Positions 22,455 through 57,923 of a stretch of 64,000 nt of DNA are shown one piece after another. The notes beneath the pieces were generated by a model. The model was not told the origin of the DNA. It did not search any database and saw only the letters and a list, made by a program, of their open reading frames with translations. The DNA is from Malachius bipustulatus (taxonomy: Eukaryota > Arthropoda > Insecta > Coleoptera > Melyridae): NCBI GenBank assembly GCA_910589415.1, contig OU342630.1, positions 88,470,186-88,534,185 of the forward strand, given 5' to 3'. A program made the translations under genes and the position numbers. How positions within the stretch are numbered: the stretch's first letter is position 1; each line of letters starts with the position of its first letter.

Positions 22455-22642
22455 TCTTGAACTTGCCTAGTTTAGTTAGTTTTACCACTCGGCAACAGGT
22501 GGCGATGTTGGATCGAAATTCATGTTTCAATCAAATAAAGTGGCTAGGCGGACACCTTTATAGTAGGGATTTAGACAATGATATCTTATTTAATAATATT
22601 AAATGGAGCTAATTAAAGAATAAAACCTTTAACGACGTTACA
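22455..22642 (+). repeat. 188-bp terminal direct repeat, upstream copy
   Basis: Starts TCTTGAACTTGCCTAG and ends TAACGACGTTACA. It contains AATAAA in two places (near 22537 and 22617), usable as polyadenylation signals. Identical by eye to the copy at 24210. Confidence 0.85.
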
Positions 22643-22646
22643 CATG

Positions 22647-22793
22647 TGTAACGTCGTTAAAGGTTTTATTCTTTAATTAGCTCCATTTAATATTATTAAA
22701 TAAGATATCATTGTCTAAATCCCTACTATAAAGGTGTCCGCCTAGCCACTTTATTTGATTGAAACATGAATTTCGATCCAACATCCCCACCAG
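22647..22793 (-). repeat. Inverted partial copy of the terminal repeat
   Basis: Starts TGTAACGTCGTTAAAGG and matches the reverse complement of the 188-bp repeat for about 146 bases without a difference that I can see, breaking off after GATCCAACATC. With the upstream repeat and the 4-base spacer CATG it forms a near-perfect palindrome centred at 22644/22645. Confidence 0.9.
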
Positions 22794-24197
22794 GGATGCC
22801 AATTGCTGCGGTCGGGCTAATTTGATTAGGCTCTGGGCCAATTAAAATGATTCTTGGCCAATTAAAATTCGATCGTTGTTGAAATAATTGCCGACTTACC
22901 TTCGTTGGGCCGAAGTATTAATTGATGCACCAAAATCTCATTCAGATTTCAAGCGACTGTAGTGGCATCAGCAGCATAAAGCGGTACGGTTTAATTACCC
23001 CTAAGATAAAAGATAGTGGGATGCCAGTGCCTTATGGTTTTTGAATAATTGATCTAAAGTAACCTGAACTATAAAGGCATCAAAATTCACTCAGGTTATG
23101 AGATGTTTACTATTTCTAACTACTGTAGTATATACCTACTGAATAATAGGGTTGATCTTTTAATGAAAAGTATATTTATGAATTCTGTTTACAAAATAAC
23201 TTATTGAAATTCTATGGTTATGAAATTACTAATTAATTGATCATGAAGTTAATTGCAAAATATCTCATTTAACAGTTTAACTGGTAGAGAAAATAGATCT
23301 ATTTTTCCTTCACATAAAAAGTGACAAATTCATTTCAAGTATTACTTGAATAATAATGGTGATTATAAGTATTAATTAATAAAACATCATCAATTTCTTG
23401 ACGAGATAAGGCAATAAAAATACACAAAACTCCTAATAGATTTCTCTGATATCACTCTGAGCAATAAAAGGTTATGTCACACTTTGCTTACTGATACGAC
23501 ATTTTGCCTTCCTTGGAATGTCGTGCCGAGACTGGAGAGCGGGGCCCTGGACGAAATCTCAGGATAGGAGACCGTGGTCTCCCTCTGGGGTGGCAGAAAG
23601 ACTGGTGAACGGTGTCGCGTCCCGTGGGAACACGTGCCTAACACTGGTAGCGTGGTCGTCCTTCGAGGTTAGATGAAAGATGAAAATATGAGGCTCCGAA
23701 TGATGAGATCCATTATTTAGGGGCAGGTAGCAGCAAAACCTTCAGATAGTGTAAGAGATTCCTTCCATAAAAGCGGATATTCGGATGCAGTAAATATTGA
23801 AAATCAATATGGCGTCCGTGAAGACAGGTGGGGTTCAACTTCGTAGATAGGTTTTCCGATGGGATAAGATAGTACCCCGATTGATAGGGTAGGTAGAAAG
23901 AACTATAACAATATATAAACTCTATTAGAGAAAGTTTCAGATAGTTTGAACAATTTACTTACCCGATTTATTAATCGGTCCTTAGATAAAGAGAAAAGGT
24001 AGGGGTGCGACTTGTCGCTTCAAGCACCAAGAATGGAAGACCAACAAACTTGTCCAGAAAGTGCGGAGCACCTTTTCCGCGCAGCTCGAAGAAAGGGTTG
24101 CTGTATTTAAATTCGCGAAACTACATCACAGCGACATCTGTGTTTCTAATTTATCGAAAAGGAAGATTGTAAGAGAAGGAAGTTACAGATTGTACTC

Positions 24198-24209
24198 AAA
24201 AGGTAGGGA
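24198..24209 (+). promoter_or_regulatory. Candidate polypurine tract
   Basis: AAAAGGTAGGGA, purine-rich except for one T, ends exactly where the downstream 188-bp repeat begins. This fits the plus-strand primer of an LTR retroelement read on the plus strand. A similar AAAAGGTAGGGG lies at about 23995. Confidence 0.45.
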
Positions 24210-24397
24210 TCTTGAACTTGCCTAGTTTAGTTAGTTTTACCACTCGGCAACAGGTGGCGATGTTGGATCGAAATTCATGTTTCAATCAAATAAAGTGGCT
24301 AGGCGGACACCTTTATAGTAGGGATTTAGACAATGATATCTTATTTAATAATATTAAATGGAGCTAATTAAAGAATAAAACCTTTAACGACGTTACA
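24210..24397 (+). repeat. 188-bp terminal direct repeat, downstream copy
   Basis: Identical by eye to 22455-22642 and followed directly by the GCAC target duplication. Confidence 0.85.
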
Positions 24398-25640: not shown

Positions 25641-25965
25641 TTAGTCCCTAATTTATTTATAGTCCTTATTATCCGGTACATCCTAGTTCCTGATAGGTAT
25701 TTGTACCTATCTTCCTCGGTGGAAGAGCAACAAACGCATCATCACCATATCAACAAATAAATCATTCATCGTCTCACCTCCAGCCAGCTACCCGCTATTC
25801 AAAGAACCGTAATACAGTGAGTACTGTTTAATTTCTAAATTGGACGACCCAAAAAGGGTGTCCCAGTTTTCTCAGTGAGCTCTTCTTTTTACTGTTAAAT
25901 ATTTTCTTGTTCTGTAAAACGTAAATCTGATTCAATCTCATTCAGTATACATATTTGGTATCGAT

Positions 25966-25973
25966 ATATAAAA
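25966..25973 (+). promoter_or_regulatory. Candidate TATA box for the 26-27 kb transcript
   Basis: TATATAAA lies about 30-35 bases before the point where the composition changes and the candidate first exon would start. In AT-rich DNA such a match is weak evidence by itself. Confidence 0.25.
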
Positions 25974-25999
25974 TCCAGTAGATATGTAACAACCGGTCG

Positions 26000-26205
26000 C
26001 TTTGTTAATATAAACATCCGGATGCTGAAGAGTTAACGTCCGTTGCGTGAAGAAAATGAAATATCCATATGACCCTACTTGACCGCAAGATGCGAGAAGT
26101 ACCTACTCTCGACCAGTTGTGCTTTGAAAGTCGCCGAGTGAGAGTTGGTGGTTTACTTGTGTTTGTGTTTGGTGCATTCTGGCGTTCTTTTGTAATAAAT
26201 AACAG
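26000..26205 (+). ncRNA. Candidate first exon of an unrecognised spliced transcript
   Basis: This GC-enriched stretch ends at CAG|GTGAGT (26203-26211), a full match to the metazoan 5' splice consensus. A plus-strand frame opens with ATG at 26069 and stays open to the donor (45 codons, leaving two bases of the next codon). The peptide starts MTLLDRKMREVPTLDQLC and I do not recognise it. The 5' end is a guess from the TATA-like motif at 25966. The segment may be a short coding exon or the 5' exon of a non-coding transcript. The strand is supported by the hairpin array at 26786, whose kink-turn pattern exists only on the plus strand. Confidence 0.35.
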
Positions 26206-26211
26206 GTGAGT
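26206..26211 (+). promoter_or_regulatory. Strong 5' splice-site consensus
   Basis: GTGAGT preceded by CAG. The nearest plausible downstream acceptor on the same strand is TTTAATCTCTTTAG ending at 27334. Confidence 0.4.
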
Positions 26212-26539
26212 TGATTTACTCAGTAAGTGTCCTATTCCTAAGATAAATAGAGTTAGGGATAAGCAACAGAGAGTTAAGTAATCATGATTATTAATTGAGA
26301 TATAATTGATAAAGATAATAATAATTATTATTAGCCTGTCTTAAGAATTGAAGTTAATGAGCTCAGATCTATTTAGAGTCAAAAGGAGAAACTGCATGTA
26401 AGCATGAAGCATGAATAAAGCATGAATAGGCAGAGAGGTAAATCAGTGAAAGACAGAATCATGATAAGTACTTATTGAGAGACAAAGGTTAATTAATGCT
26501 GAAGATGTCTAAATTGCTGAAGTGTAAAGTAGAAATGAG

Positions 26540-26785
26540 CGTTGATCGTAGAGTTCCAGTGGGCCTGTGTGGCCTGTGCATGTGTTCGTTTGAGTCTCTG
26601 AGAGAAGGTCTGTAGCCTGTGAGGCTGAGAGCGGCTTGGTGGCCGAAGGCAAGTGATGCCTGTGTGGTCTGCATGTGTAGACCCGAGAGACCTGAGAGCG
26701 GCCCGTGTGGCCTGCGTGACCTGCATGTGTAGGTCAGAGTGGAGGCCAGTGTGGCCAGTGTGGCCTGACCTGACCTGACTTTGTT
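26540..26785 (+). ncRNA. Structured GC-rich segment with covarying GCATGTGT-loop hairpins
   Basis: Two hairpins share the 8-base loop GCATGTGT but differ in stem sequence while keeping pairing: GGTCT/AGACC (26666-26670 with 26679-26683) and TGACCT/AGGTCA (26717-26722 with 26731-26736). Each is preceded by a related block, CTGAGAGCGGCTTGGTGGCC (about 26625) and CTGAGAGCGGCCCGTGTGGCC (about 26692), so the segment is a duplicated module. Other short hairpins occur (AGCCT-GTG-AGGCT, AGGC..GCCT). GTGTGGCCTG recurs. No open frame on the plus strand is convincing, and the long minus-strand frame here is a shadow of the repeats. Confidence 0.55.
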
Positions 26786-27068
26786 CCGGGTGTGAAGGAT
26801 CGAGAGGATGATCCTGCCGATCACCCGTGAGTGGTTTCTGAAACCGGGCGTGAAGGATCGAGAGGATGATCCTGCCGAACGCCTGGTGGTCTGGGCGTGA
26901 AGGATCGAGAGGATGATCCTGCAGAACGCCTAGTGGTCTCTAACCGGACGTGAAGGATCAAGATGGATCCTGCTGACCGCCTGGTGGTTCCCCGGGAGTG
27001 AAGGATCGAGAGGATCCTGCCGACCTCCCGCGAATGACCTTGAGATCGGGAGGACCGAGGTGGGTCCT
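26786..27068 (+). ncRNA. Tandem array of five kink-turn-like hairpins plus one degenerate unit
   Basis: Each unit has a C-stem AGGATC/GATCCT closing a purine-rich loop (GAGAGGAT in the first three) and an asymmetric loop of GA on the 5' side opposite GCN-GA on the 3' side, then an outer stem. This is the kink-turn layout (3-nt bulge GCC/GCA/GCT, tandem G-A pairs). C-stems start at 26796, 26854, 26901, 26954 and 27002. Outer stems: CGGGTG/CACCCG (26787/26822), CCGGGCGT/ACGCCTGG (26844/26879), CTGGGCGT/ACGCCTAG (26891/26926), CCGGACGT with CCGCCTGG (26944/26977, two mismatches), CGGGAG/CTCCCG (26993/27025). A sixth unit at 27051-27068 pairs AGGACC with GGTCCT but lacks the kink. Sequence changes in both stems are matched on the opposite side. 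Kink-turns are bound by L7Ae/15.5K-type proteins. No known RNA family is recognised. Confidence 0.65.
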
Positions 27069-27334
27069 GGTTACCACTGCGTGCCTTGGCGCCGTAAACC
27101 TTGGCAAGGCTACGATCAACGGCTTAAGAGCAAGATGTCTTAAGTAGAGTCTTGAGTCGAGTAACTTCAGCAATGACCTTGAACAGTGATTTACGTATCT
27201 TCAGCAAGGTGATGTCAAAGCTCGATGTCAAAGCTCTATAGAGAGGCTACCAAGAAGGCTAAGCAGTAGTTAATGATAAGCTTAAGCAAGCTTTAGGAGG
27301 AATAAGACACTTATGCAAGTTTTAATCTCTTTAG

Positions 27335-27369
27335 GGAGTGAGCCGAGACGTCGCAAGGCAAGAGAAACG
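27335..27369 (+). ncRNA. Candidate short exon after the hairpin array
   Basis: TTTAATCTCTTTAG| precedes and |GTGAGT follows a 35-base, GC-rich segment (GGAGTGAGCC...GAGAAACG). If real, the hairpin array is intronic between 26206 and 27334. Alternatively, this is part of a terminal exon ending after the AATAAA at 27402. Confidence 0.3.
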
Positions 27370-27401
27370 GTGAGTGACTAGAAAAACAACGGCCCTGACG
27401 A

Positions 27402-27407
27402 AATAAA
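27402..27407 (+). terminator. Candidate polyadenylation signal
   Basis: AATAAA followed by TTTGTGTATTTACATGTG, a GT-rich stretch as seen downstream of cleavage sites. It lies on the same strand and at the edge where the GC-rich island ends. Confidence 0.3.
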
Positions 27408-27539
27408 TTTGTGTATTTACATGTGAGTAATTCTTTCCCTCTTTTCTGCGTTACAGTTCTGATTTTTCTAACATAAGTTTGATAATTTATTGTTTCGTTA
27501 AGGAGTAACAGGAAGGGTTGGCCACTCATACCGTACTCA

Positions 27540-29640
27540 TTTTGTTATTTTTTTCTGTTTCTTGTTCAATATAAACGAGCTAGTTATTTGTGTATTAAAA
27601 ACTTGCCCATAATATTTTGACAGCAAGTTACTTGTTGAGTACACATTTAAATTTCAAAAGATCTCACCTCGAATATTATTATTTATGTACCTAATTGATT
27701 GGCACGGGGATAATTCAAACCATTATTTTTTGGTTCATCGTAGTCCCCGTTTCAATACATGGTAAAACAGAAGGCTGGGTAAATTAGCATGACCGGTTTT
27801 TAATATGGGCGGACTTTTTACCTATAGCATTTTAACAGCATAATTATGCGAATTCATGACTTCGCGAACATCTTCAAAAAATCCTAGTAAATATTTAAAT
27901 AGAAGTTGTTTTAGAAGATGGTTATAGTAGTGCAAAGCCAAATAATTATTCGATGAAAATTTAATAATTGTGAGAATGTTATAATTACCGTTCCTTAGAG
28001 AAAACCCATTTTAGATGGGAGAGTGATTTTAAGCTAACTGACAGTGTCGAAATAAAATTTAAAAGTATTGTTAGAACTCTGTAGATGCGCTGACATGAAG
28101 GAACGGTCTGCAGAAAACATTAATCGGCCTTGCAAATTCCAGACAGACGCCTCGAAGAAGCATTGAAAACAATTTGCATTTTCACCCTTACAAAATTCAA
28201 ATCAAGCAAGACTTGCAAGACCTCTCTAAATCTATAGCCTTGTGGCACTCTGCAGAAAACTCATGCAAATTTTGAACTCGGTGTAAGATGACAACGCCAG
28301 CGCTATTATACATTTACCTGGTTTTGATAGCAAGTATAATTGATAGTAAACGGAGCATCTAAAACAGCCTAGCAACCATCAGAACATCACTTATTATTAA
28401 AGGTAACTCCGTATGATAATATAAGACTAAGAGCAACGTAGCTTTTGGTTTCAACAAAATGGCGCGACGGCCCAAACAGCAATGTTCCCTAAACAAAGTG
28501 ATCTCGAAATGGTCATATATATTTGGGCACAAAGACATCTCGTGGAACAAATGTGTAATGCCAGTTTCTGAACCGTGTATTATTTTCATGATTTTGAATA
28601 ATATCTATATAAATTTTGACAAAAACAATGAAAGGTAACTGATCAATTGAGTAGAATAGGATGGTGGAATTTTTTTTCGAATTTTTCTTGTTATGGTCTT
28701 TTCCAGCACATTTAATTTTGGCATTTGAATCGAAATTAAGTGAAAATTACTGAATTCAGATTCCTGAATATTGTAAAGTTTGTTCTTATTAATCTTAATA
28801 ATTTAACAAGCTCTGCAATTGTCTTAATAATGATCACATATTTGTATTATACGTTATTCCTCTAAAATGAAAAATTGCAGTGTAATTGAAACATACCATG
28901 TAATCTATATTTAAATCAAGAAAGCTTTCAGTGATGATATAACATTTATGTAGTTGCTCATTGTCAAACAAGCTCAAGGACAGCTCAATTTCACGATTAA
29001 ACAAAACAGGAAAATCTGGAATAAACTATTCCCATCGTATCCTATTACATGCAAGTAATTTTCCTCCATTTAAAATTACCAGACTTGAAACAAACGACTA
29101 TATTGATTTACGCTCAATTCTCAAATTATGTTATGTCTATTTAGAAACTTCAGTCATAATAACTAATAAGTTGGAAGGATCGGTAAATAAATGACAAAGG
29201 AACATGTTTAATGTGTAGGTTATGGGAAAACTTTCGTTTGTAACGAAAGCCTGCATAAATTATGTTTTCATTTGCTCACACGATATATAATCAACTTTTA
29301 TGTAAAATTTTCAGACCTCCCATAGGTATTAATTCTTTATAGCAACAACAATATTATTGTTCTGCTATATGTACGAGATCAATTTTTCTATTAAGTAAAA
29401 AAATGACAAAATAAAAAACTCAAGAATTTTAGTTTGAAAATTTTAATTTATAAACTTTTACCGATATGGAGAAACCATTCCGACATTTTTGTCCTCTTCG
29501 TTTATAAGTACATAAATATAATAACTGGGCGCATATAGAGCTGGGAAAGTTGTTGTAACTGAACCTCGGATGTCAGATGTCGAATTAACTTTGTGATACA
29601 GAGTGATTCAAAACTCGAACAACAACTTCAGCAGAGTGTG
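27540..29640. other. AT-rich intergenic stretch, no gene seen
   Basis: About 2.1 kb. Open frames at 28359-28589 (-) and 28961-29194 (+) have no recognisable domain and AT-driven composition. Confidence 0.5.
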
Positions 29641-30486: not shown

Positions 30487-31085
30487 ATGTTTCCTAATGC
30501 AGCTTTCCGTATTATCCTGAATATTTCGTGGATCGATAAAGTGGGGAAACTCAAGTGCTCCAACATTTCACTAAACTTAAAGAGGTCCTACAAACTTAAA
30601 AGGCGAAAGTTCGAACTTTTGATTTTTAAACGCCTCAAAAAGTACAAATTCGGTGTTGTAAAATTACTAATCTGCAGACATAGCATGCAGAATAGTAATA
30701 CCAGACTTTCGCCTTTAGTTCACACCCAGCAGGACCACTCTAATAAATGTGCTAGGAGAAGTATAAAAAGTTACTTAAAAAAATCTCCAACAATGACATC
30801 GGAGTCTCCTGCCAAGACAGTCACAAACAAAGAAATAAGAAGAAGAACAGGTGTTATGGATGCAGTGAAGCGAATAGCAATCCTAAAGTGGAACTGGGTT
30901 GGTCATATTGCTAGAAAAACATACGAACGGTGGACCAAGAAGATAAGATAAGTTGAGACCACGATAACAGGCTTACAGGAGGAGAAGAAGACCACCGACC
31001 AGACGGGCAGATGACATTAAGCGCATCCGAGGAAACTGGATACAAAATTTATACAAACTTTTGATACAAATTACAAATATCATAT
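30487..31085 (+). pseudogene. Decayed RTE/CR1-like LINE, C-terminal pieces
   Basis: Two LINE-like parts lie in one 154-codon frame. The first (30507-30560) reads FRIILNISWIDKV, the pattern of the thumb region RRIL.ISW.D. The second (from about 30835) reads RRRTGVMDAVKRIAILKWNW, VGHIARKTYERWTKKI. After a stop and frame change it continues RRRRRPPTRRADDIKRI, RGNWIQN to about 31060. This is the usual C-terminus of RTE-type reverse transcriptases. The middle (30600-30800) is unlike the family and may be an insertion. Frameshifts make it non-functional. Confidence 0.8.
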
Positions 31086-55624: not shown

Positions 55625-56957
55625 GGGACGAAATTGTTCAATTTTGTAATTTTTTTTTGGTTTATTATGTGTAAAAATCTATTTTATGGCACGCTTTCAA
55701 ACGAAATGAAATGAATTTTCACATCAGTAAACCTCTACGAAAATTCGACCTGACTATGGAAAAATTCAGAAAGCCAATTTAAAAGGCGGCAAAAATTTTC
55801 ATAATTGAATCGCATAAAAATACACTATTTCTGCGATTGATGCGCAAGAAGGTTTTTTTTGGTTGTATTCTTTTCCGAAAGTTTCACTTTTTTTTTAATA
55901 TTATTCAATCCTATAACTACAGTATCCATTAAAACGTCACGTAAGGAAGTTTTGGCTGTACTGTCTGTTGTACATATTTCACTGAATTCTCGTAATCGAT
56001 TCGAATCCACGGAAAACTTCCAGCAGTTCCAGCGAACGGCTGAATACGTTTGTAGAATATCCTGACCTAATTCTCTTATTTTCATTCCGCATTCAAATGT
56101 GTCGTCCTCCAGGAGTACTGATATTGAATTCATTGATTTATGTTTAGTTCCATGAAAGTCTAGTTCAACAGAAAAACTCCATTTTGAGCTTTTCCATTCA
56201 AACAGAGCTGTTTTTAGATAATAGTCATTTTATAGAATATAGAAGGCGACGTCACTGGGATGTTGGAGTTGGAAGTAAGTAAGCTTTCAGTTCAGCACTT
56301 TCAGCTTTCTATCCGTCCTCTTTTCCGGTTGAGTATTGATTTTAGACGGTCGATGTCTTCCCGACTCGACACGAAACAGAAACAGTGTTCTACTCTACAA
56401 GCTCACAGCTGGAAATGCGCCGTAGCTAGCGCCGTTGACCGTTCTTGTGAACGCAGGTCATAGACAGCGTTCCGCAAATTCCTCTCATCCTTCATGCCTC
56501 GCCACGCCATGGCTCAAGTTTACTTGCTTTAAGTAGTTGCATTGATTCAATGCTTCATACTTCTCTTATTCCATCTTAAACCTACAGGAATTCTTGCGTT
56601 TAATATTTCGAATTGTTCAAGCTCCATTCATTGGACGAAGTTGTGTGTAAATCTATATATAAACGTCGAAAGTTTGAGAAGTTACAATACCAAAATACCG
56701 ACCCACGGTTTATGATGTTGCTCATACCTATCTAGGTCAGGGTTCACGGTTGGCTAAAGAAAATAGCAAATTGCTTTGAGCGAGGTAATTTTACGTTACG
56801 TTCCGGGTTTGTAGGTTCGTGGGTGAAAACTCTGCTTAAAGTTGATATTCTACCTCTCCCTACTAGGGAGGGCAAATAGGAAATTCAGATTGAACTTTGA
56901 AGCTGAATATCTGATTGTTTTTACATTTTGATTTATCGTTTTCAAGATATAAGGGTT
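55625..56957. other. Stretch without a convincing gene
   Basis: Open frames on both strands at 55825-56133 overlap each other and show no domain. The part at 56240-56470 is more GC-rich, without a recognisable product. Confidence 0.5.
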
Positions 56958-57923
56958 GATTTTTTGAAAACAGCCATCAACTGGCTTAGCACATATTATG
57001 ATAAGTGGAAAATAAAACTCAATGCAAGCAAATGCGAAGCCAAAATCTTCACGCTAAGAAGACCAGCCGATCCTCCCCTAATAATATTAAACGACCATCC
57101 AATACCATGGAATCCATCAGATACCACAGTCAGATACCTTGGACTCCATTTGGACAGGAAACTAAGTTTTAGAGCTCATGTAAATAAGAAACTCAACGAA
57201 GCATATGCACGTCTTGTGATGCTATACCCGATCCTAAACAAGAAATCCGAACTGAAGCTTGAATGTGCAGTTCTAATATACAAATCAATCCTAAGACCTA
57301 TGATTATGTATGCCTGTCCCGTTTGGAGCACAACCTGTAAAACGAACGTAAAGAAGATCCAAACATTCCAAAACAAAGTACTGAGAATAGCAACGCACGC
57401 ACCTTGGTTTATACGAAGTACCCAGATCCACAGAGAGACGTCAACCCCATATATCTCAGATTACATTTCTAAAATTACCAAGAAATTCCTTAAAGATCTA
57501 CACAAGTGCCCAGCAACCGAACTCTATAGACTAGGGAGCAAAACCCAACAAAGAAGACTTAAGAAACGCCTACCACAAGATCTTTATTTATCCAGCGATT
57601 CTGATGACAATGAATATGACGCCAGTCAACACGTAAGATAACATGAAAACTGCTGATATCAACATTGTTACCAATCATTGTTATATTGCATTCATCCATA
57701 TATTTATCTGCTTATTTACTATTATTTCTCCGGCTATGCTGGACACACAATTATGTAACCCTGTTACCCCATTTTCCTTCTTTTCACCATATCAAACTGT
57801 GATAATTTAATTTAAGTTCCTTTAAATACTTATGATCTCAACCTTGTATAATATGTAATATATTGAGCGGGTTAATAAAGATATTAAAAAAAAAAAAAAA
57901 AAAAAAAAAAGATTTTTTGAAAA
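56958..57923 (+). mobile_element. 5'-truncated Jockey-type LINE with poly-A and 13-bp target duplications
   Basis: The inserted sequence runs from about 56971 to the end of a 25-base poly-A (57886-57910). It is flanked by identical 13-bp repeats GATTTTTTGAAAA (56958-56970 and 57911-57923), the signature of target-primed reverse transcription. Only the last ~220 codons of the polymerase ORF and a ~240-bp 3' UTR were copied. The frame is still open and the flanks are perfect, so the insertion is young. Confidence 0.92.
56970..57641 (+). pseudogene. Reverse transcriptase C-terminal part (Jockey-like LINE)
   Basis: The first 14 codons of the surrounding open frame (from ATG 56928) are target DNA. 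The LINE protein enters at about AINWLSTYYDKWKIKLNASK. It shows the post-palm block KWKIKLNASKCEAKIFTLRR, then VRYLGLHLDRKLSFRAH, then the thumb-region pattern IYKSILRPMIMYACPVWS, then KIQTFQNKVLRIATHAPWF. It ends in a charged tail (SSDSDDNEYDASQHVR). These are characteristic of Jockey-clade ORF2 C-termini. The catalytic palm with the YADD box, the endonuclease and ORF1 are missing through 5' truncation, so it cannot be active. No internal stops are present. Confidence 0.9.

Follow-up and report, generated by a model that had tools for sequence, protein, structure and literature searches.

The five tandem hairpins lying between positions 26787 and 27030 of the window (the whole 64,000-nt stretch of DNA that was analysed) belong to the LTR of a Ty3/Gypsy retrotransposon. 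They are predicted to form kink-turns in the leader RNA of this element, where they may serve as a repeated recognition module for the packaging of the genomic RNA; this is our leading, still tentative, reading of their function. The hairpins are real, but they do not form an RNA gene by themselves, and the LTR in the window is a solo one.

The hairpins lie in a solo LTR of a Ty3/Gypsy retrotransposon

25909..25912, no strand: left target-site duplication GTTC, directly before the TGTAA end
25913..27455, plus strand: solo LTR of a Ty3/Gypsy retrotransposon, 1543 bp, with sharp ends common to the copies; two-LTR copies carry pol domains
27456..27459, no strand: right target-site duplication GTTC, directly after the TTACA end

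The cuticle-protein family PF00379 has 83 matches in the 544-Mb genome and none in 14 control genomes, which is indicative of an arthropod. The pattern of one hairpin unit has 367 exact matches in the genome and, reversed as a control, none. The array segment was found at 40 scored genomic places including the window itself, with 90-100% identity, these being the best-scored 40 of 211 candidates. Comparison of the flanks of the copies set the LTR termini at TGTAA...TTACA, and the LTR copies are 86-96% identical to the window LTR. Identical 4-bp flanks were observed in 16 of the 24 complete LTRs. Of the remaining eight, six belong to a two-LTR copy or adjoin internal sequence, and the flanks of the last two (L123 and L125) do not match. 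The TG...CA ends and the short target duplication are those of an LTR.

The two-LTR copy L101 comprises, in one frame, an RVT_1 domain (E 5.3e-41) followed by an rve domain (E 4.9e-15), hence RT upstream of integrase, and the closest solved chain to its RT is that of Ty3 (E 1.6e-66). Of two gag pieces, one contains a zf-CCHC match (E 3.5e-06) and one has no family match. The named relatives of the RT include insect sequences at 46-59% identity and also plant sequences, with none found in the viral contig collection. In two two-LTR copies the LTRs differ at 0/1512 and 1/1522 positions, and thus the family moved recently.

The element resembles other Ty3/Gypsy elements (Metaviridae) in its TG...CA ends, 4-bp duplication, TATA-like and AATAAA motifs, CCHC gag and RT placed before integrase. 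It differs from them in the length of the LTR (about 1.5 kb), with a putative R region that is about 1.4 kb long and full of hairpins, and, in the two or three copies read, in having neither a primer-binding site directly after the LTR nor a purine tract directly before it. A TGGCGCC is situated about 22 nt after the 5' LTR in L101, L102 and L105, where no TGG primer-binding site follows immediately. The stretch preceding the 3' LTR in L101 and L102, the two copies read, is not rich in purines.

The sequence-only reading had not seen that the sequence is part of a Ty3/Gypsy LTR. Since it is a dispersed part of an LTR, the RNA would be the leader of the element and not the product of a separate tandem-hairpin gene; a stand-alone lncRNA or ncRNA gene was rejected because of the genomic copies and their sharp shared ends.

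Structure of the hairpin array

26787..26827, plus strand: predicted kink-turn unit 1, outer stem CGGGTG/CACCCG, core UGA / GCC-GA-U, inner stem AGGATC/GATCCT, loop GAGAGGAT
26844..26886, plus strand: predicted kink-turn unit 2, outer stem CCGGGCG/CGCCTGG, core UGA / GCC-GA-A
26891..26933, plus strand: predicted kink-turn unit 3, outer stem CTGGGCG/CGCCTAG, core UGA / GCA-GA-A
26944..26984, plus strand: predicted kink-turn unit 4, outer stem CCGGACG/CGCCTGG with an A-C mismatch, core UGA / GCT-GA-C, loop AAGATG
26993..27030, plus strand: predicted kink-turn unit 5, outer stem CGGGAG/CTCCCG, core UGA / GCC-GA-C, loop GAGAG
27051..27068, plus strand: sixth hairpin, AGGACC/GGTCCT pairs, no GA/GA core

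Each unit consists of an outer stem, UGA on the 5' side and the inner stem AGGATC/GATCCT, which is followed on the 3' side by the 3-nt bulge GCN and then GA. The kink-turn layout, that is, a 3-nt bulge and GA opposite GA between two stems, was found in all five, which bears out the kink-turn consensus claimed in the sequence-only reading; its claim of five tandem units sharing the inner stem at a spacing of 47-58 nt was likewise confirmed, the starts of the shared core being 58, 47, 53 and 48 nt apart. The shared 9-mer TGAAGGATC occurs five times in the 64-kb window, always inside the array (shuffles: mean 0.47, maximum 3). Folding of the array region, a check named in the same reading, is more stable than that of all 100 shuffles (z -3.48).

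The flanking stems are complete in units 1, 2, 3 and 5, unit 4 has an A-C mismatch, and the predicted fold is mixed. The earlier statement that the outer stems differ and still pair thus holds for these four units and for the paired changes described below, but not for unit 4. The sixth hairpin pairs through its altered inner stem, as had been stated, but is no kink-turn, since GGG / GGTTAC replaces the GA/GA core.

When the 64 kb were scanned for the kink-turn layout, the plus strand yielded units 1, 2, 3 and 5 and three AT-rich sites elsewhere, unit 4 being missed because of its A-C mismatch; the minus strand yielded one site. The plus-strand bias of the pattern is supported. The strand order within the units is that of the C'/D' kink-turns.

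Box C/D, C'/D', U4 and Kt-7 kink-turns share with the array the succession of a stem, a 3-nt bulge, GA opposite GA and a second stem. Unlike these, the array comprises five tandem units, each a closed hairpin with its own stem, and has U:A next to the bulge. The 3b:3n position is U:U in unit 1, A:U in units 2 and 3, and C:U in units 4 and 5. According to published rules, metal ions induce only weak folding when the pair adjoining the bulge is U:A (PMC8191799), a pair that is rare in ribosomal k-turns, at 1.7% (PMC5689011); U.U at 3b:3n is described as common in box C/D (PMC5689011). A Watson-Crick 3b:3n pair prevents ion-induced folding and C at 3b permits it (PMC4382518). Folding of the units would therefore be expected to need protein or tertiary contacts.

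Position of the array in the LTR

25965..25972, plus strand: TATA-like motif TATATAAA, putative promoter, exact in 19/36 aligned LTR copies
26203..26211, plus strand: perfect splice-donor 9-mer CAGGTGAGT, putative donor, the sole CAGGTRAGT on the plus strand of the window
26557..26770, plus strand: upstream short hairpins with GTG-type loops, rich in GTGTGGCC and TGCATGTG, folding z -2.93
27370..27375, plus strand: second donor-like GTGAGT, about 30 nt before AATAAA; GGTGAGT kept in 33/36 copies
27402..27407, plus strand: putative poly(A) signal AATAAA followed by a GT-rich stretch, probable end of R

The donor 9-mer is kept in 33 of the 36 LTR copies (changed in one, the stretch being absent from two), and AATAAA at 27402 (AAATAA) in 34, the other two being without this stretch. 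An end of R at the AATAAA at 26194 was rejected because AATAAA is present there in only 1/36 copies, namely that of the window, with AATAGA in 27/36. Judging from these motifs, the R region would extend from about 26000 to about 27425 (about 1.4 kb) and hold the array downstream of the splice donor; the TATA motif, the donor 9-mer and the conserved AATAAA at 27402 would thereby place the array in the leader RNA.

The stems of the upstream GTG-loop hairpins differ from one another, and few stretches of the LTR vary as much as this one (13.5% in one 60-nt window); in L101 it seems to carry duplications. Between 26394 and 26723 there are seven GCATG on the LTR plus strand and no CATGC (shuffles of 26000-27399: mean 1.2, maximum 5, n = 500), three of them situated in TGCATGTG of these hairpins; GCAUG is the Rbfox site. 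Long minus-strand frames exist in this sequence, but they overlap in several frames and follow base composition, and a protein-coding reading was rejected.

Conservation and covariation of the units

Among 38 distinct copies, stem positions vary by 1.0% and unpaired array positions by 3.0%. The pair cells of these copies (n = 2622, with the constant A-C of unit 4 scored as unchanged) comprise 2568 unchanged cells, 33 that are changed but paired, 18 broken and 3 gaps. The sequence-only reading had named a dispersed repeat losing its pairing as evidence against itself; the sequence is indeed dispersed, but the copies largely keep the pairing, as these 2568/2622 unchanged cells show. The GA/GA core is kept in 759/760 cells (five units in each of the 38 copies, unfiltered), and the positions L3, 3n and 3b, which kink-turns leave free, are changed in 30/570 cells of the same copies.

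In an alignment of 12 units, 94.2% of the cells are paired, compared with 26-50% when the partner is slid, and nine cells are changed on both sides vs 3.6 in shuffles (0/500 shuffles reach nine). For 71 distinct units the corresponding values are 91.4% vs 25-54%, and 24 cells vs 7.5 (0/500 reach 24); related copies are not independent in any of these covariation counts. When pairs with double changes are counted, there is no excess in either alignment: three vs 2.2 in shuffles for the 12 units (177/500 reach it) and three vs 2.3 for the 71 (153/500). No double changes were observed in the inner stem in either of them. Alignment A3 contains 150 of the 151 matches from a search of 33 loci; the one left out is the weakest (L176, 206-248), and its inner stem seems, by eye, to be changed on both sides.

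The arms of the outer stems were also compared directly, with units found by a pattern allowing one change per inner arm. The 38 distinct arm pairs form 189/228 pairs; the highest number obtained in 5000 re-pairings is 179. The second outer pair of the first unit found was compared across 57 arrays and is TA 42 times, CG 13 times, and TG and CA once each. Of 317 units found by the pattern, 40 were excluded for having fewer than three of the four GA bases, and the eight of these that were examined are sixth hairpins. A further 13 units, with AGGAC arms, were excluded before the 57-array count, whose 1049/1056 is conditional on this filter.

Thus, the outer stems differ between units and between subfamilies, yet mostly pair, including the exchange of T-A for C-G. 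The exceptions are the outer stem of unit 4, with the A-C mismatch in 38/38 distinct copies, and the older subfamily with an A-A mismatch in unit 5 (by eye). In the predicted folds of the 38 copies, the outer stem of unit 4 forms in 2/38 and unit 1 in about half. The number of units varies between arrays. Some parts of the LTR are more conserved than the array, whose conservation exceeds that of the remainder only to a moderate degree: 60-nt windows vary by 1.2-3.3% within it vs 0.6-13.5% over the LTR. Selection on RNA structure is likely, though not proven.

Search for relatives of the array

No Rfam family matched the array at its gathering score, in agreement with the earlier statement that no RNA family of this kind was known, and the six Rfam matches in 25900-27700 are at chance level. 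The best weak match, the Actinomyces-1 RNA (RF02928; 19.5 bits vs a gathering score of 39.1, E 0.86), is not a member. Units 2-3 align with it in hairpin and bulge layout, but it is bacterial and not a tandem of five. It is described as a bacterial RNA with a confirmed k-turn (PMC8191799), and the match thus speaks for the kink-turn layout and not for membership.

The array model R1 matched the same-family loci. In three related families (RT identity 67%, 58% and 58%) its best scores were at chance level in the sequence examined, which for the 58% relatives covered the RT loci and about 3 kb upstream of RT, so that LTRs may be missed. The array may therefore be special to its own Ty3/Gypsy family. 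The unit pattern also matches 87 prokaryotic contig stretches (one match per listed row) and five viral ones, which were taken as chance. Among the papers listed for kink-turns together with retrotransposons or retroviruses, none mentions tandem k-turns in an LTR in its title or abstract opening.

One of these relatives, the 67% Gypsy family, occurs on the 15.8-kb contig G000:C45 (L145, L146, L168, L186) twice in the same direction, 7161 bases apart, and the 3795-base RT loci of the two copies are identical.

Possible function of the array

The array could be a signal for packaging of the genomic RNA, a docking platform for a host protein, a structure without a function of its own, or a set of sites acting as DNA.

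The packaging reading, which we favour with reservation, would work as follows. Transcription would start after the TATA motif and end after the AATAAA at 27402, and the genomic RNA would carry the array, as part of a long R region, close to each of its two ends. The units would bend at their kink-turns, each holding the inner stem and the purine-rich loop (GAGAGGAU, GAGAG or AAGAUG) in a fixed pose, and the repeated loops would be bound by Gag, the nucleocapsid part of which carries the CCHC zinc knuckle. Splicing from the upstream donor would remove the array, and hence only full-length RNA would be packaged; the conservation of the putative donor 9-mer upstream of the array (33/36) is relevant to this restriction to unspliced RNA.

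There are precedents. Mouse mammary tumour virus uses looped purines in the leader as a packaging signal (PMC8096270), the encapsidation signal of MoMLV contains an A-minor k-turn, packaging of Ty3 RNA depends on UTR or POL sequences (PMC4974528), and conservation in long R regions has been linked to stem-loops (PMC3601003). The array resembles the MMTV and MoMLV signals in comprising leader hairpins with purine loops and, for MoMLV, a k-turn of the A-minor type; unlike them, it is situated inside the LTR itself, and the likeness is one of layout. Against the packaging reading weigh the absence of an excess of doubly changed pairs, the conservation of the array relative to other parts of the LTR, the mixed predicted folds, the mismatches in units 4 and 5, the weak folding expected in metal ions and the chance-level R1 scores in the three related families. 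A related proposal, possible but rather doubtful, is that the leader is a tandem, copy-number-variable row of kink-turns, which would be a modular RNP platform near both genome ends, where a k-turn-binding host protein or Gag would assemble in several copies and mark the RNA as genomic.

The main, close rival to packaging is that the array docks an L7Ae-type protein of the host (15.5K/Snu13, SBP2 or a ribosomal relative), through which the element RNA would be controlled in its nuclear retention, stability or translation; taken by itself, we rate this as somewhat unlikely. The core fits the target of this family (a 3-nt bulge and GA opposite GA), with U.U at 3b:3n in unit 1 (PMC5689011), and the U:A by the bulge together with A:U at 3b:3n in units 2 and 3 leads one to expect protein-dependent folding (PMC4382518, PMC8191799); moreover, archaeal L7Ae is reported to bind its own mRNA at a k-turn hairpin of the 5' leader (PMC6298567). 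On the other hand, C at 3b in units 4 and 5 permits folding in ions (PMC4382518), and five sites are more than one regulatory switch needs.

The array could also be a single tandemly duplicated hairpin without its own function, the pairing of which persists because the copies are young and the units share descent; this we consider improbable. The identity of the copies to the window LTR (86-96%), the near-identical LTR pairs (0/1512 and 1/1522), the variable number of units and the failure to find the array in the examined sequence of the three related families are all consistent with it. However, the differences of the outer stems between units and subfamilies mostly keep the pairing, and within the core it is the free positions that vary and not GA/GA.

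Finally, the repeats might act as DNA, namely as tandem sites for a host factor in an enhancer or insulator, the least probable of these readings. Drosophila gypsy carries tandem Su(Hw) sites. The inner arms form an AGGATC/GATCCT palindrome, and tandem motifs in LTRs are a known theme: Sirevirus LTRs carry palindromic repeated motifs (PMC2829016), similar to the array in being tandem short palindromes. Those motifs, however, lie upstream of the TATA box and are read as DNA-level activators, whereas the array is downstream of it. In addition, the separation of the palindrome halves varies (5, 6, 7 or 8 nt), and DNA sites leave unexplained both the outer arms, which differ and yet pair, and the GA/GA layout found almost only on one strand.

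If the packaging reading is true, a Ty3/Gypsy leader with such a hairpin module, compact, repeated and defined in sequence, would be a ready test case. The module would also show the k-turn in use as a tandem array, whereas the k-turn RNAs of the papers compared here use single ones, and, if the protein bound is of the L7Ae type, it would tie a transposable element to this host machinery.

Other elements in the window

Frames at 1440-1745, 30487-30951 and 56907-57641 resemble, by eye, remnants of LINE reverse transcriptases, with no Pfam match at E 0.001. An element-like unit at 22645-24397 has 145-bp terminal inverted repeats that are 99% complementary and resembles a DNA transposon lacking coding capacity; 22455-22642 and 24210-24397 are exact copies of one 188-bp piece.
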